Positions 1,387 to 6,135 of a stretch of 34,088 bases of DNA are shown here, piece after piece (within the stretch, counting starts at the first letter, position 1; the number at the start of each line of letters is the position of its first letter). The notes below the pieces were generated by a model. The model saw nothing but the letters and a program-made list of their open reading frames with translations, was not told where the DNA came from and did not search any database. This DNA is from Verrucomicrobia bacterium ADurb.Bin118 (lineage in GTDB: Bacteria; Verrucomicrobiota; Verrucomicrobiia; Limisphaerales; MWDV01). The stretch is taken from NCBI GenBank assembly GCA_002070715.1, contig MWDV01000129.1, positions 1 through 34,088 on the forward strand, given 5' to 3'. Position numbers and translations under genes: made by a program.

Positions 1387-1623
1387 TTACTTGTGTGCAT
1401 TGGCTCGACCTTGAAATTCAAGGTCTTCATTGACCCACCGCCACACTTGAAGGTCTCCATCCTCAAACTTGAGCAGCAACCCGCCAGTTTCGAAGCAGGC
1501 AAAGTCCCGTGCCTCGCTAGTACGTTCAGGGAACACGCTTTCAACGGTAGCTCGTTTACCAACCACGGCAACAATGTCGCCTTCCTGAACCGCTTCACCG
1601 CTCTTGTAGTGAAAAGCTGTCAT
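1387..1623 (-). CDS. Small acidic protein directly downstream of the Rhs tail; candidate immunity protein
   Basis: This encodes 78 residues starting at the ATG at 1623 (MTAFHYKSG). An upstream in-frame ATG at 1647 would overlap the Rhs gene and add eight unlikely residues. The protein is acidic and mostly predicted beta: GEAVQEGDIVAVVG suggests a small barrel (SH3/KOW-like), followed by GGLLLKFEDGDLQVWRW and ending EDLEFQGR. The same order (GD.V, GG.L..F..GD, W..EDL.F.GR) occurs in small proteins I recall encoded next to Rhs or polymorphic-toxin tails. It begins 4 bp after the Rhs stop on the same strand, the usual place for a cognate immunity gene. The immunity role is inferred from position and general features; no activity can be read from the sequence. 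Confidence 0.6.
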   Translation of the reverse strand: MTAFHYKSGEAVQEGDIVAVVGKRATVESVFPERTSEARDFACFETGGLLLKFEDGDLQVWRWVNEDLEFQGRANAHK

Positions 1624-1627
1624 AAAA

Positions 1628-3385
1628 TTACGGAGCAACGCCGCCACCCTGAGCGGGCGTTATCGGTGGACCGAGGATACCAGGCAAAGGGTCTTTGAGT
1701 ATCTCAACCCAGAAACACCGACAACCGGCTGCCGGTGGGCTTTGGTTCATCATAAACATGTGTGAGTGCGGCGTTGGAATGTCGTTGTGAGGCGGTGAGG
1801 GCGGCCTATCAACCCGATACGCAATAGATCCGACCGCAGGATTACAGGGAAGGCATTTCTTTGGCTTCTCACACTTGTCATCCTTTGGCTTTTTGCAGAC
1901 ATCACTAATTATATCTGCCGCTATCCAAACGACAATGCCGCCTACGATGATGCCAACGCCCACACCAATAGCCGTTCCGATCCCTGGGCAGATCACTGTG
2001 CCTACCCCTCCACCGATTACTCCACCGGCAGCCGGATTCTGTCCCGTAGGATCGAAGAAGTTGATCGGATTGTTGTGAACGAATCCGCAAAGATTCAATC
2101 CACCTTTTTCTTGGATAGGGTCTCGGTTTAGCCACCGTCCCGTGCTCGCGTTGTAATACCGATAACCGTAGTAGAGCAGGTCGGTTTCCTCATCCTGATA
2201 TTTGGTTGAGAACCGGAACGGATTGGCCTTGGCCATGGGGCCGGTGGCGCGGAGGACTTCCCCGAACGGGCCATACTCGTATTGCGCGGTCAGCCCGGCG
2301 CCATCCGCTTTCAGCAAGGCGGTCACATTGCCATTGCCGTCATACGCGCAGAAGCGCGAACCCTGGCTGGTGTCGGTGATGGCCAGCAACCCACCCACGC
2401 CGCCCGCGCCTTGCATCGTCCCACTCAAATCCAAGCCCCACAGGTAAGCCTGGCGGACCGACGATGCCGGATTGAGGCTGGCGAGCAAGTTCCAGCCGTC
2501 ATACACGAAGCGATTCGTGTATTGGGCCACGTAAACCGAGCCGTTATTCGTGGACACCAGCTTCTGCATGCGCCGACCCTGGGAATCATACTGAAATTCC
2601 AGCTTCAACTTCGACGCCGTCGGCGCTCCGCTCAGGCTTTCCTGTTTCACCAGCCGGTTCTCCGCGTCCCACGTATAATCCCACAGCCCGTCGCGGATCA
2701 AGTTGCCATCGGCGTCATAGATGAAGGTTTCCGGATTCTGCGCCAGCAACAGACTGCCCGCGATGTTGGTCACGATGTCCGCCCCGGTGTAGTTGCTCAG
2801 CGCGGCCACGCTCGTGATGGTCAACCACACCGCGCCCGTGTTGTTGTTGACCAACATTTCCCCCCGGAAATAATCCCCCTGGCGCGTCGTGGGCGTGTAG
2901 AGCGCAAGATTGTCCTGGCTCCACAAGCTGACGGTGGCGGTGTTCGTGGCCGTGCCCAGCACGTTCACAAACCCCGGCACGGTGCGGCTGGTGTATTGGT
3001 TCAGGCTGTTCACCGAATAGGAAGCCTGCCGCAGGTCCCGCGCGGTGGTCTGCCGGTTGCCAATGTCGTCGAACGCATAATCAAACTGCTGCCCGGCAAC
3101 GGGTGTGCCATCGCTCCAATACTTCTTCCCGCTCGTGACCTGGCCCATACTGTCATAACCATACACCCAATAGCTGCCGTCCAGGTTCGTCACGCTTGTG
3201 CGCTGGCCGGCGGGGTTGTATTGGTTATCAAATTGGGACAGGGTGGAACCTGTCCCTCCCAACGACGAGGTGTTCGTGAGGCGGTTCAGACGATCGTAAC
3301 CGTTGGTCGTGGTCATCACGGTCGTGCCGTTCGTGGCGAAGGTAATCTGTCCCACCAGAGGCGAATGGTCAAGATAATCGCACAT
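1628..3385 (-). CDS. Rhs/YD-repeat protein, N-terminally truncated, with a distinct C-terminal tail
   Basis: The frame is open to 4042, but the part beyond 3385 has no Rhs character and is antisense to the glycosyltransferase at 3512. I therefore start at the ATG at 3385 (MCDYLDHSPLVGQ), giving 585 residues. YD-type repeats follow (YDRLNRL, YNPAGQRTS, YGYDSMGQVTSG, FDDIGNR, YDADGNL, YDSQGRR), then the Rhs core end YGPFGEVLR...KYQDEETDLLYYGYRYYNASTGRW.NRDP and FFDPTG near 2040. The last 135 or so residues are different: a Gly/Val/Ile-rich membrane-like stretch, a Cys/Lys-rich patch (CKKPKDDKCEKPKKCLPC) and a conserved-looking tail with VGSIAYR, H.....PHSH, NQSPP and CRCFW. Full-length Rhs proteins are much longer and carry secretion signals, so this is a 3' fragment or a displaced tail. 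The tail may be a toxin or a structural end module. Confidence 0.75.
   Translation of the reverse strand: MCDYLDHSPLVGQITFATNGTTVMTTTNGYDRLNRLTNTSSLGGTGSTLSQFDNQYNPAGQRTSVTNLDGSYWVYGYDSMGQVTSGKKYWSDGTPVAGQQFDYAFDDIGNRQTTARDLRQASYSVNSLNQYTSRTVPGFVNVLGTATNTATVSLWSQDNLALYTPTTRQGDYFRGEMLVNNNTGAVWLTITSVAALSNYTGADIVTNIAGSLLLAQNPETFIYDADGNLIRDGLWDYTWDAENRLVKQESLSGAPTASKLKLEFQYDSQGRRMQKLVSTNNGSVYVAQYTNRFVYDGWNLLASLNPASSVRQAYLWGLDLSGTMQGAGGVGGLLAITDTSQGSRFCAYDGNGNVTALLKADGAGLTAQYEYGPFGEVLRATGPMAKANPFRFSTKYQDEETDLLYYGYRYYNASTGRWLNRDPIQEKGGLNLCGFVHNNPINFFDPTGQNPAAGGVIGGGVGTVICPGIGTAIGVGVGIIVGGIVVWIAADIISDVCKKPKDDKCEKPKKCLPCNPAVGSIAYRVDRPPSPPHNDIPTPHSHMFMMNQSPPAAGCRCFWVEILKDPLPGILGPPITPAQGGGVAP
3235..3261. 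repeat. 27-bp palindromic repeat, copy inside the Rhs coding sequence
   Basis: Identical over 27 bases to 821-847. Here it is read in frame on the minus strand and encodes LGGTGST within SSLGGTGSTLSQF, between two YD repeats. It keeps the reading frame. Confidence 0.8.
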
Positions 3386-3511: not shown

Positions 3512-4288
3512 ATGAAAACCCTGTATGTGCTTGGGGCGCCGCTGCTCGTCACCACGTATGACGAACTGGCCGCGCAATGTCTGGCGTGGGCGCGCGCACC
3601 GCGTTGTTTCACGCTGGAATTCGTCAATACGCACATCGTGACCGCCATGCGCCATGACCCGGCGTTCCGCGCCATCATCGCCACTTACGACCATTTGCTG
3701 CCGGACGGTATGCCGCTCGTGTGGTGTCTCAACCGTGCCGGCGCCGGCTTGCGGGACCGGGTCTATGGCCCGACCTTCATGCGCCGGTTTCTGGAAACCG
3801 CGCCGGCCGGCACGACGCATTATCTGCTGGGCGGATCGGCGGAATGCGGCGCGCGGTTGCGGGAAATTTTTCAACAGCGCAATCCCGGATTGCGCTTCGT
3901 GGGCGCGTTCCACGGCTGGTGCGAGGAGGATGGTCAATTGGAGGCGGAAGTCCGGGTGATGGAGGAGCTGCACACCCTGGCGCCCGATTTTATCTGGGTC
4001 GGTTTCGGCACGCCCAAACAACAAACCTGGGCGGCGCGGCACAAGGCGGCGCTGCGGCGGGGTGTGGTGTTGACGGTGGGCTTTGCCTTTGACGCGAACG
4101 CGGGGTTAAAACCCGACGCGCCGATCGGGTGGCAACGCGCGGGGTTGACGTGGTTGTTTCGGCTGATTTCAGAGCCGCGACGCCTGGGACCGCGCTACCT
4201 GCGCTTTAACACCTTGTTTCTCTATTACCTGCTGGCCGACGGACTGCGCGGGCGGGCTTGGGGCAAAGAGCGACCTTCCGCCGCGTAA
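3512..4288 (+). CDS. WecG/TagA/CpsF family glycosyltransferase
   Basis: This 258-residue protein has the usual length for the family (about 240-260). Members transfer N-acetylmannosamine(uronate) or related sugars to undecaprenyl-linked intermediates at the inner face of the membrane during teichoic acid, ECA or exopolysaccharide synthesis. Visible family features are FVNTHIV at 37-43, the DGMPLVW motif at 65-71 with the conserved Asp65, VYGPTFM, VGFGTPKQQTW near 170, and the C-terminal block QRAGL.WLFRL..EPRRL..RYLRFN. It precedes the exosortase by 156 bp and faces the same way as the sugar transferase at 6155, which supports a role in building a lipid-linked surface polysaccharide. The donor sugar cannot be told from sequence. 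The start ATG has only a weak purine-rich stretch upstream. Confidence 0.9.
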   Translation: MKTLYVLGAPLLVTTYDELAAQCLAWARAPRCFTLEFVNTHIVTAMRHDPAFRAIIATYDHLLPDGMPLVWCLNRAGAGLRDRVYGPTFMRRFLETAPAGTTHYLLGGSAECGARLREIFQQRNPGLRFVGAFHGWCEEDGQLEAEVRVMEELHTLAPDFIWVGFGTPKQQTWAARHKAALRRGVVLTVGFAFDANAGLKPDAPIGWQRAGLTWLFRLISEPRRLGPRYLRFNTLFLYYLLADGLRGRAWGKERPSAA

Positions 4289-4444
4289 ACGTCGCGCGAC
4301 GAATCCCTCATCCAACCGGGTTGCCGCTTGCCAATAAAGGTGTCTCTTCAACGACTCAGTGAGTTCTCCAGATGCGCTCCATCGGTAAATTCTATTGAGT
4401 AAAATCGGGAATTCAGGTATCCAATTCGGCGCGGATAATTTCAC

Positions 4445-5422
4445 ATGAGCGACCAACCACAAACCGGCTGGGTTGAGGAATTCCGGGTGGAATTTCACGA
4501 TTACTGGCGGCAACTGCCCAACAAAGGGTTGTTTTTCGCCTTACTGGCGGTTTGGCTCGGGCTCTTCCATTTTCTCGGCAACTCGACGTTCGGTTACGTG
4601 AACACGCCGTCCCTGCCGGGCTGGATGTGGAACGCGTGGAGCGCCAATGATTGGGACGAAGGCCACGGGGCGTTGATGCCGGTGGTGGTGCTGGCGTTGC
4701 TGTGGTGGAAACGCCGGGAGTTGATGGCTCTGCCATTGGGATTGTGGTGGCCGGGATTGGTCCTGGTGGCCGTTGCCTTGGGCCTGCATCTGATTGGTTA
4801 CATGATCCAGCAACCGCGGCTTTCGATCATTGGATTGTTTGGCGGAATCTACGGATTGATGGGCCTGGCGTGGGGCTGGCGTTTTTTGCGGGCCAGTTTC
4901 TTTCCCTTTTTTCTGTTCGTGTTTTGTATTCCGTTCGGTTCGCTGGCGGAAAAAGTGACGTTCCCGCTCCGCATGCTGGTCAGCTACATCTCCGTAGGCA
5001 TCAGCCAGGCGGCGGGGTTTGACGTGATCCGGGACGGCTCGTTGATTTACGATATGCAGCGGACTTTCCAATTCGATGTGGCGCCCGCCTGCAGTGGCAT
5101 CCGCAGTCTCGTGGCCCTGCTGGCCTTGACAACGATTTTCGGTTTCCTGGTGTTCCGGTCGCCCTGGCGACGGGCGGTCATGGTGCTCTCAGCCTTTCCG
5201 CTCGCGGTGCTGGGGAATGTAATCCGCATCACCTTCACGATTTTTGTCACAGAACTGTTCGGCCAGAAATACGGGCTGGCGGTGGAACAGAAGTTTGGGT
5301 TTGTGACGTTTGCGGTGGCGCTGGTGTGCGTGCTGCTGCTGGAACGATGGCTGCGGGAGCCGTCTCCGGCGCGACGGGAGGAGGGCCCGCCCACCACGGC
5401 CACGGAGGGAACGATCCCGTGA
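4445..5422 (+). CDS. Exosortase (membrane-embedded cysteine protease/transpeptidase family)
   Basis: This 325-residue multi-spanning membrane protein has about eight hydrophobic segments. It carries the exosortase signature VAPACSGIRSL, with the presumed catalytic Cys216, and a second conserved residue, Arg261, in LGNVIRIT. Exosortases process C-terminal PEP-CTERM-like signals and attach or release proteins at the envelope, usually beside EPS genes as here. In the third conserved block, where other family members have a His a few residues before the last helix, this protein reads LAVEQKFGF. My alignment by eye puts Glu281 at the His position. The gene overlaps the next by 4 bp (GTGA), typical of translational coupling with an EpsI partner. 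No PEP-CTERM substrate is encoded in the window. Confidence 0.92.
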   Translation: MSDQPQTGWVEEFRVEFHDYWRQLPNKGLFFALLAVWLGLFHFLGNSTFGYVNTPSLPGWMWNAWSANDWDEGHGALMPVVVLALLWWKRRELMALPLGLWWPGLVLVAVALGLHLIGYMIQQPRLSIIGLFGGIYGLMGLAWGWRFLRASFFPFFLFVFCIPFGSLAEKVTFPLRMLVSYISVGISQAAGFDVIRDGSLIYDMQRTFQFDVAPACSGIRSLVALLALTTIFGFLVFRSPWRRAVMVLSAFPLAVLGNVIRITFTIFVTELFGQKYGLAVEQKFGFVTFAVALVCVLLLERWLREPSPARREEGPPTTATEGTIP

Positions 5423-6135
5423 AACGCGCGCAATGGATCGTGGCCGGTGTCGCTCTCGCGTTGATGGCGGGTGGGGCGGGGGCTTTGGTGCGAATGAAGG
5501 CCGGACATCGGTTGGGCGCGCCCGGCGTGAAAACCCAGCCCATTCCCGACAGTGTCCGCTTGGAAGTTCTGTTGCCGGAACGGGTGGCGGACTTCGATTC
5601 CCAACCGGTCGAAACCACGGCGGAAGTTCTGAACACGTTGCCGCCGGACACCAGCTTTGGGCAGCGCCGCTACCAGGCGCCGGATGGCTTTGAGACGTTG
5701 CTCAATGTGGTGCTCATGGGCACCGACCGGACCAGCCTGCATCAGCCGCAGTTTTGTCTGACAGGCGGCGGGTGGCACATTGACCGGGAGGAAGTCACCC
5801 AGGTGCGCATCAACGGACGCCCACCCTACGATCTGCCGGTGATGAAGTTGACCACCTCGCGCGAAGCCACGGTGAACGGCCAGACCGTGCCGTTGCGGGG
5901 GCTTTATGTGTATTGGTTCGTCTGCGACGGCGCCTACACCGCCCGTCACGGAGAACGCATGTGGTGGATGGCCCGGGAACTCTTGCGCTCCGGGATGCTG
6001 CAACGCTGGGCTTATGTGACCTGTTTCAGCGTCTGCGCCCCAGGCGGGGAGGAGGCCACGTACCGGCGGATGGAACAGTTTTTGAGCGCCGCCGTGCCAG
6101 AATTTCAATTGACACCGCCCGCCGCCAGTCCCTGA
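5419..6135 (+). CDS. EpsI-like exosortase-associated protein
   Basis: A 238-residue protein starting at a GTG (5419) that overlaps the exosortase stop. The longer in-frame ATG at 5326 would bury the start deep in the exosortase gene. It has one N-terminal signal-anchor helix (IVAGVALALMAGGAGALV) followed by an extracytoplasmic domain. The motif HQPQFCLTGGGW near residue 110 corresponds to the H.P..C....GW signature of EpsI proteins, where the conserved Cys sits in the periplasmic domain. EpsI proteins occur fused to or next to exosortases and are needed for EPS/PEP-CTERM function, but their biochemical role is not settled. The gene is followed after 19 bp by a sugar transferase, consistent with one transcript. 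Confidence 0.85.
   Translation: MKRAQWIVAGVALALMAGGAGALVRMKAGHRLGAPGVKTQPIPDSVRLEVLLPERVADFDSQPVETTAEVLNTLPPDTSFGQRRYQAPDGFETLLNVVLMGTDRTSLHQPQFCLTGGGWHIDREEVTQVRINGRPPYDLPVMKLTTSREATVNGQTVPLRGLYVYWFVCDGAYTARHGERMWWMARELLRSGMLQRWAYVTCFSVCAPGGEEATYRRMEQFLSAAVPEFQLTPPAASP

Follow-up and report, generated by a model that had tools for sequence, protein, structure and literature searches.

A candidate orphan Rhs toxin-immunity module with a conserved Cys/His tail in a Verrucomicrobia genome

The window analysed in this study, namely the whole stretch of 34,088 nucleotides of contig MWDV01000129.1 from Verrucomicrobia bacterium ADurb.Bin118, carries on its minus strand a 5'-truncated Rhs gene fragment (1628..3385) composed of YD repeats, an Rhs core and a variable tail, which encodes 585 aa from the ATG at 3385 and ends with the stop codon at 1628-1630. 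Four nucleotides after this stop codon, on the same strand, starts a small gene of 78 aa (1387..1623), which we presume to encode an immunity protein and refer to as the partner. The Rhs fragment is matched by Pfam RHS_repeat (PF05593) with E 1.5e-13 and by NCBIfam Rhs_assc_core (TIGR03696) with E 1.3e-25. Its recognisable Rhs part begins at about residue 216 of the long open reading frame (ORF), near the ATG at 3385, and the match to paralogues of the same genome begins at about residues 216-235, i.e. at about 3400-3340. Since the frame upstream of 3385 is not Rhs-like, whereas the paralogous copies in loci L054 and L057 stay Rhs-like further upstream, the N-terminal delivery half is missing from the window copy, so that a delivery domain, be it PAAR, a signal peptide or another, is absent; long Rhs frames are found in the relatives L003 (1851 aa) and L030. 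Being 5'-truncated, the window copy is classed here as an orphan module and not as a complete Rhs toxin. Neither the strand nor the truncation of the gene was given in the earlier note on this DNA. The neighbourhood of the window copy showed no full-length rhs gene, and a gene on the opposite strand, starting at 3512, abuts it; by eye this looks like a WecG/TagA-type glycosyltransferase, followed on the plus strand (3512-6135) by exosortase-like and EpsI-like genes. Two repeats were also observed in this region. A 31-nt near-identical repeat (97%), which contains the palindrome GGGACAGG/CCTGTCCC, lies at 817-847 (intergenic) and at 3231-3261, where it codes for GGTGSTLSQF inside the Rhs frame, and a 23-nt inverted repeat (729-751 / 1210-1232, 91% complementary, 458 nt apart) lies where no clear gene is seen.

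At the end of the core, FFDPTG starts at 2059 and is followed by the Gly/Val-rich QNPAAGGVIGGGVGTVICPGIGTAIGVGVGIIVGGIVVWIAADIISD on the minus strand, and then in order by CKKPKDDKCEKPKKCLPC (from 1897), VGSIAYR (1834), PHSH (1771), NQSPP and CRCFW (1723). All the elements of the switch described in the earlier note, i.e. the Gly/Val-rich segment, the Cys patch and the motifs of the tail, are thus present as it had read them. We divide the tail into a Gly/Val-rich hydrophobic linker (1898..2041), which differs among relatives in its Kyte-Doolittle hydropathy, and a Cys/His module (1631..1897), the presumed toxin domain, which is supported by the alignment of seven relatives. The module makes up the last ~75 residues and reads C-x-P-C…VG[ST]…H-x-H-x-F…NQ-x-P…C-x-C-[FN]-W, with a Pro/Gly-rich C-terminus; the codons of the first Cys pair lie at 1855-1853 and 1846-1844, that of the invariant His at 1768-1766, and those of the second Cys pair at 1723-1721 and 1717-1715.

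The junction between core and tail is formed by a C-terminal plug (2042..2122) with the sequence DPIQ-X19-DPTG, which corresponds to DPXG-X18/19-DPXG, the aspartyl autoprotease motif by which Rhs C-termini are released (PMC10684867); autocleavage of Rhs proteins has also been reported elsewhere (PMC8636562). The spacing in the window is that of the known motif, but Q replaces G in the first half; by analogy, the plug is likely the release point of the tail. The genome of the window (G000; 3.8 Mb, 81% complete) holds 24 Rhs core matches, i.e. 23 besides the window copy, and the window protein is 85% identical to the copy in L055 over 355 residues, 73% to that in L057 and 67% to that in L060. 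The alignments with these three and with L049, L050, L051, L061, L066 and L067 end at ORF residues 667-677, that is, at or just past DPTG, beyond which the Rhs paralogues of G000 diverge, with ten or more distinct tails and with other ORFs downstream. Judged from sequence, the cores of this genome are joined to differing tails at DPxG, the behaviour by which Rhs polymorphic toxins are defined. Cys-rich tails were seen among the G000 copies (L048-L067) in L049, L051, L055, L057 and L067.

Beyond this genome, the module was found on Rhs proteins of three phyla, namely Verrucomicrobiota in the broad sense, Planctomycetota and that of Burkholderia. It occurs on the 1851-aa frame of L003 (genome G053, the same class as the window) and on Rhs proteins of Oligosphaera ethanolica (L025/L031), of genome G095 (L027), of a Planctomycetota metagenome-assembled genome (L032) and of Burkholderia arboris (L028/L030), together with broken copies in L026, where the frame is interrupted, and in the degraded cassettes L036 and L037. 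The closest relative of the window module is that of L032, which shares 63% identity and belongs to another phylum. Seven sequences share the signature C-x-P-C...[VIA]-G-[ST]...H-x-[HNK]-x-[FWY]...[NH]-Q-x-P...C-x-C-[FN], with the first Cys pair missing in L036 because the frame is broken just upstream. The earlier note had mentioned endings of the type VG.I.YR...H......NQ.P....C.CFW from other Rhs proteins, and such endings indeed exist, as L036 has IGTIGYRIDHVPPSKPHSPFTGTHVHLYRMNQNPNNCQCFW. In leave-one-out profile searches every member was recovered at 37-72 bits, compared with at most 10.1 for shuffled sequences; the window tail scored 65.9 bits against the profile of six relatives (best of 500 shuffles 7.0), with E 2.1e-22 for a single comparison, so that the pattern lies well outside what chance would give. 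The nucleotide differences from the closest relative are enriched at third codon positions (26, 21 and 47 at the first, second and third), as would be expected of a selected protein. Queried alone, the window tail found no match in the genome contigs, while the alignment as query recovered three loci there. Most hits of a first class-wide search appeared to arise by chance in unrelated sequence or in a wrong frame, and L003 alone was kept; L038 and L039 were likewise dropped as apparent chance matches. The search of plasmids for relatives of the tail gave B. arboris only, and none was found in viral contigs and phage records. No published description of the module was found in the open-licence text that was searched.

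The two parts of the tail are not equally conserved, which bears on how it might act. The best 19-residue Kyte-Doolittle mean of the Gly/Val-rich stretch is 2.42 in the window, and the corresponding maxima are 1.92 in L025, 1.83 in L028, 1.76 in L003, 1.20 in L027 and 0.72 in L032. In L032 (333-1220) the place of the stretch is taken by Cys-rich sequence that has additional CxC and CC motifs. One could suppose a membrane-active toxin, in which the stretch forms a pore, as does the C-terminal part of Tse5 from Pseudomonas aeruginosa, and the Cys/His part is accessory; pore-forming Rhs toxins do exist (PMC10684867), the window stretch is very hydrophobic, and B. arboris has a Gly-zipper-like counterpart in the same place. 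However, the stretch is weak in L027 and missing in L032, although the latter is the closest relative and keeps the partner. Its loss there shows the stretch to be a linker that varies and lies outside the conserved module, rather than the toxin. The antidotes of pore-forming toxins are frequently membrane proteins, whereas the partner has by eye no membrane segment. Pore formation is thus quite unlikely, the hydrophobic part not being conserved.

What accompanies the module throughout is the partner. In all relatives, including L036, L037 and L026, the tail is immediately followed by a small homologous ORF, usually within ~30 nt: the gap is 4 nt in the window, 1 in L025, 20 in L027 and 25 in both L003 and L036, while the partner of L028 overlaps the tail gene and the partner start in L032 is uncertain. 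The window partner carries Y-x-SG-x-x-V-x-x-GD-x-V, for which the family signature is Y-x-x-G-x-x-[VI]-x-x-GD-x-[VI]. Leave-one-out profiles recovered the window partner at 48.1 bits (best shuffle 7.7) and the family at 10.7-51 bits against shuffles of at most 8.8, the weakest member being L027 (10.7 versus 5.5). BLASTP of the window partner with that of L003 alone is not significant, so their kinship rests on the profiles. Together with the switch of core and tail at DPxG within one genome and the recurrence on unrelated Rhs cores, this conserved downstream partner gives good comparative support to the earlier suggestion of a reusable C-terminal module, perhaps a toxin. The AlphaFold2 model of the partner is mostly beta (pLDDT 68); since Foldseek gave no match with E < 0.1 in PDB and BFVD and VIA-align gave Z of at most 3.7, we claim no fold for it.

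Homologues of the partner also occur without the tail. Three stand-alone ones (L042, L043 and L045) belong to three genomes of one genus, and further ones were found in Cupriavidus, in Caballeronia and in three Pf phages of Pseudomonas. In both Pf phages inspected the homologue adjoins the integrase; it is unannotated in these phages of Pseudomonas aeruginosa (L068:2504-2722, and also L069), where it possibly serves as immunity cargo. Another homologue, 43% identical to the L036 partner, lies at L070:2501-2734 (MG879028.1 33519-33752) and opens the cassette array of a class 1 integron. On this conjugative IncP plasmid, pEG1-1, it is flanked by the integrase gene and aadA9, with an attC-like hairpin predicted downstream of the cassette gene (z -4.4); a search of E. 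coli genomes gave no copy of this integron homologue. T6SS arrays are known to include orphan immunity genes (PMC5361080). Two homologues in settings other than Rhs are counted as evidence against a toxin-immunity pair, namely the one in L046, beside hemF/hemE-like genes by eye, and the one in L044, within a long ORF.

With regard to known families, neither the window tail nor the window partner has a match above cut-off in Pfam, NCBIfam, PADLOC or PHROGs, and neither family has one in PDB. No Pfam Imm family matches the partners, up to E 1 for all those scanned and up to E 10 for that of the window. The conserved set of the tail (C, C, H, Q, C, C), when compared with active sites, gave no recognised counterpart. 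The AlphaFold2 model of the tail, built on an alignment of only 4 sequences, is unusable (pLDDT 39.9); both Cys pairs, as candidate metal ligands, are conserved in the seven-sequence alignment, and a model at pLDDT 40 shows nothing of a clustered metal site. Might the module then belong, as a divergent branch, to Ntox24, a toxin that Zhang et al. 2012 predicted to be an RNase? The L036 tail matches the C-terminal half of PF15529 with E 0.01, and the published description of Ntox24 gives an all-beta protein in which Y, H and H are conserved (PMC3482391). This match of 16.6 bits nevertheless falls below the curated cut-off of 24 bits, and the other five tails are unmatched (E limit 10 for the window and 1 for the rest). 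Cys pairs are not among the listed features of Ntox24, and its listed immunity families, Imm50 and Imm53, gave no match to the partner. A search of 324 genomes found no Ntox24 members. We regard this descent as unlikely.

Taken together, these observations argue that the tail and its downstream gene are probably an Rhs polymorphic toxin-immunity pair, present here as an orphan, displaced module. We hold this reading with good confidence on the anatomy of the genes: tails are switched at DPxG, the module recurs with one conserved family of downstream partners, and partner genes stand alone as orphan immunity genes do. It is further supported in B. arboris, where a gene resembling by sequence PAAR, a part of type VI secretion, follows shortly after the pair. 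Alternatively, the module could be a structural, processing or anchoring piece of the Rhs protein, with the downstream gene as its chaperone or modifier. The tail is short, its Pro/Gly-rich C-terminus is conserved, and no known toxin profile matches it; the profile search for a non-toxic structural Rhs end, a match to which would have spoken against the toxin proposed earlier, likewise gave no family above cut-off. On the other hand, switching of tails at DPxG, a diversifying partner and free-standing partners on mobile elements typify toxin-immunity pairs, which makes a non-toxic end very improbable. A different matter is whether the window copy still functions, whatever the family does elsewhere. 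It may be a decaying relic, as its 5' half is lost, the opposite-strand gene abuts it and a full-length rhs gene is not seen alongside; yet the frames of tail and partner are intact, close together and conserved, and other Rhs cores abound in the same genome (the 23 matches above). Orphan rhs-CT/rhsI fragments of Salmonella Typhimurium LT2, moreover, can recombine onto the main rhs gene and be deployed (PMC3967940). A relic is accordingly a possibility to be taken seriously, while we lean towards the other side.

If the toxin-immunity pair is real, its action may be pictured from studied Rhs proteins. In the intact protein the Rhs shell would enclose the tail, the aspartyl protease plug would cut the tail free at DPTG, and the freed tail would enter a neighbouring cell and act there. 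The two Cys pairs and the invariant His might coordinate a metal with a structural or catalytic part in the active site; such metal binding is plausible from the residues conserved. The activity might be that of a small cytoplasmic nuclease, an RNase or a DNase, which is a guess falling somewhat short of even chances and leaning on the one sub-threshold Ntox24 match from one relative. The size of ~75 aa, the Pro/Gly-rich end and the failure of AlphaFold2 to fold the tail are counted against a compact enzyme. The partner, small, soluble and beta-rich, would bind the tail and block it in the producer and its kin. More tentatively still, the tail may represent a toxin fold that depends on metal, has as yet no name and comes with an immunity family of its own; the switching of Rhs tails would have carried it to three phyla or more, and its immunity genes would also be mobile alone. 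Partner genes on integron cassettes and filamentous phages would then make their recipients resistant in advance to a class of Rhs weapons. Should the toxin-immunity pair be borne out, the Rhs arsenal would gain an unnamed family of toxin and antidote in Verrucomicrobiota and Planctomycetota, where antagonism is little studied, and a role would be gained for a family of small proteins without known function in an integron and Pf phages.

Compared with known systems, the module resembles Ntox24 (PF15529) by the weak sub-threshold similarity of L036 over ~45 residues, but differs in its Cys pairs and its other partner family, with no significant match. The partner of L036 matches PHROG 9171, a phage-derived family of unassigned function, with E 3.8e-6, whereas the partner in the window falls short of a match. 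With Tse5 the tail shares a hydrophobic stretch directly after the Rhs plug, though it is the Cys/His module, and not the stretch, that is conserved in the window family. No main rhs gene is seen adjoining the window copy, in which it differs from the orphan modules of Salmonella LT2, while it resembles them as an Rhs fragment with part of the core, a tail and a partner gene (PMC3967940). Finally, the Rhs core, the DPxG-type plug, the variable tail, the small downstream gene and the displaced orphan fragments are all those of Rhs-CT/RhsI systems, from which the window differs in that its tail and partner families have no model in Pfam, NCBIfam or PADLOC; as no model of any searched library names them, they would constitute an undescribed family of a well-known kind.
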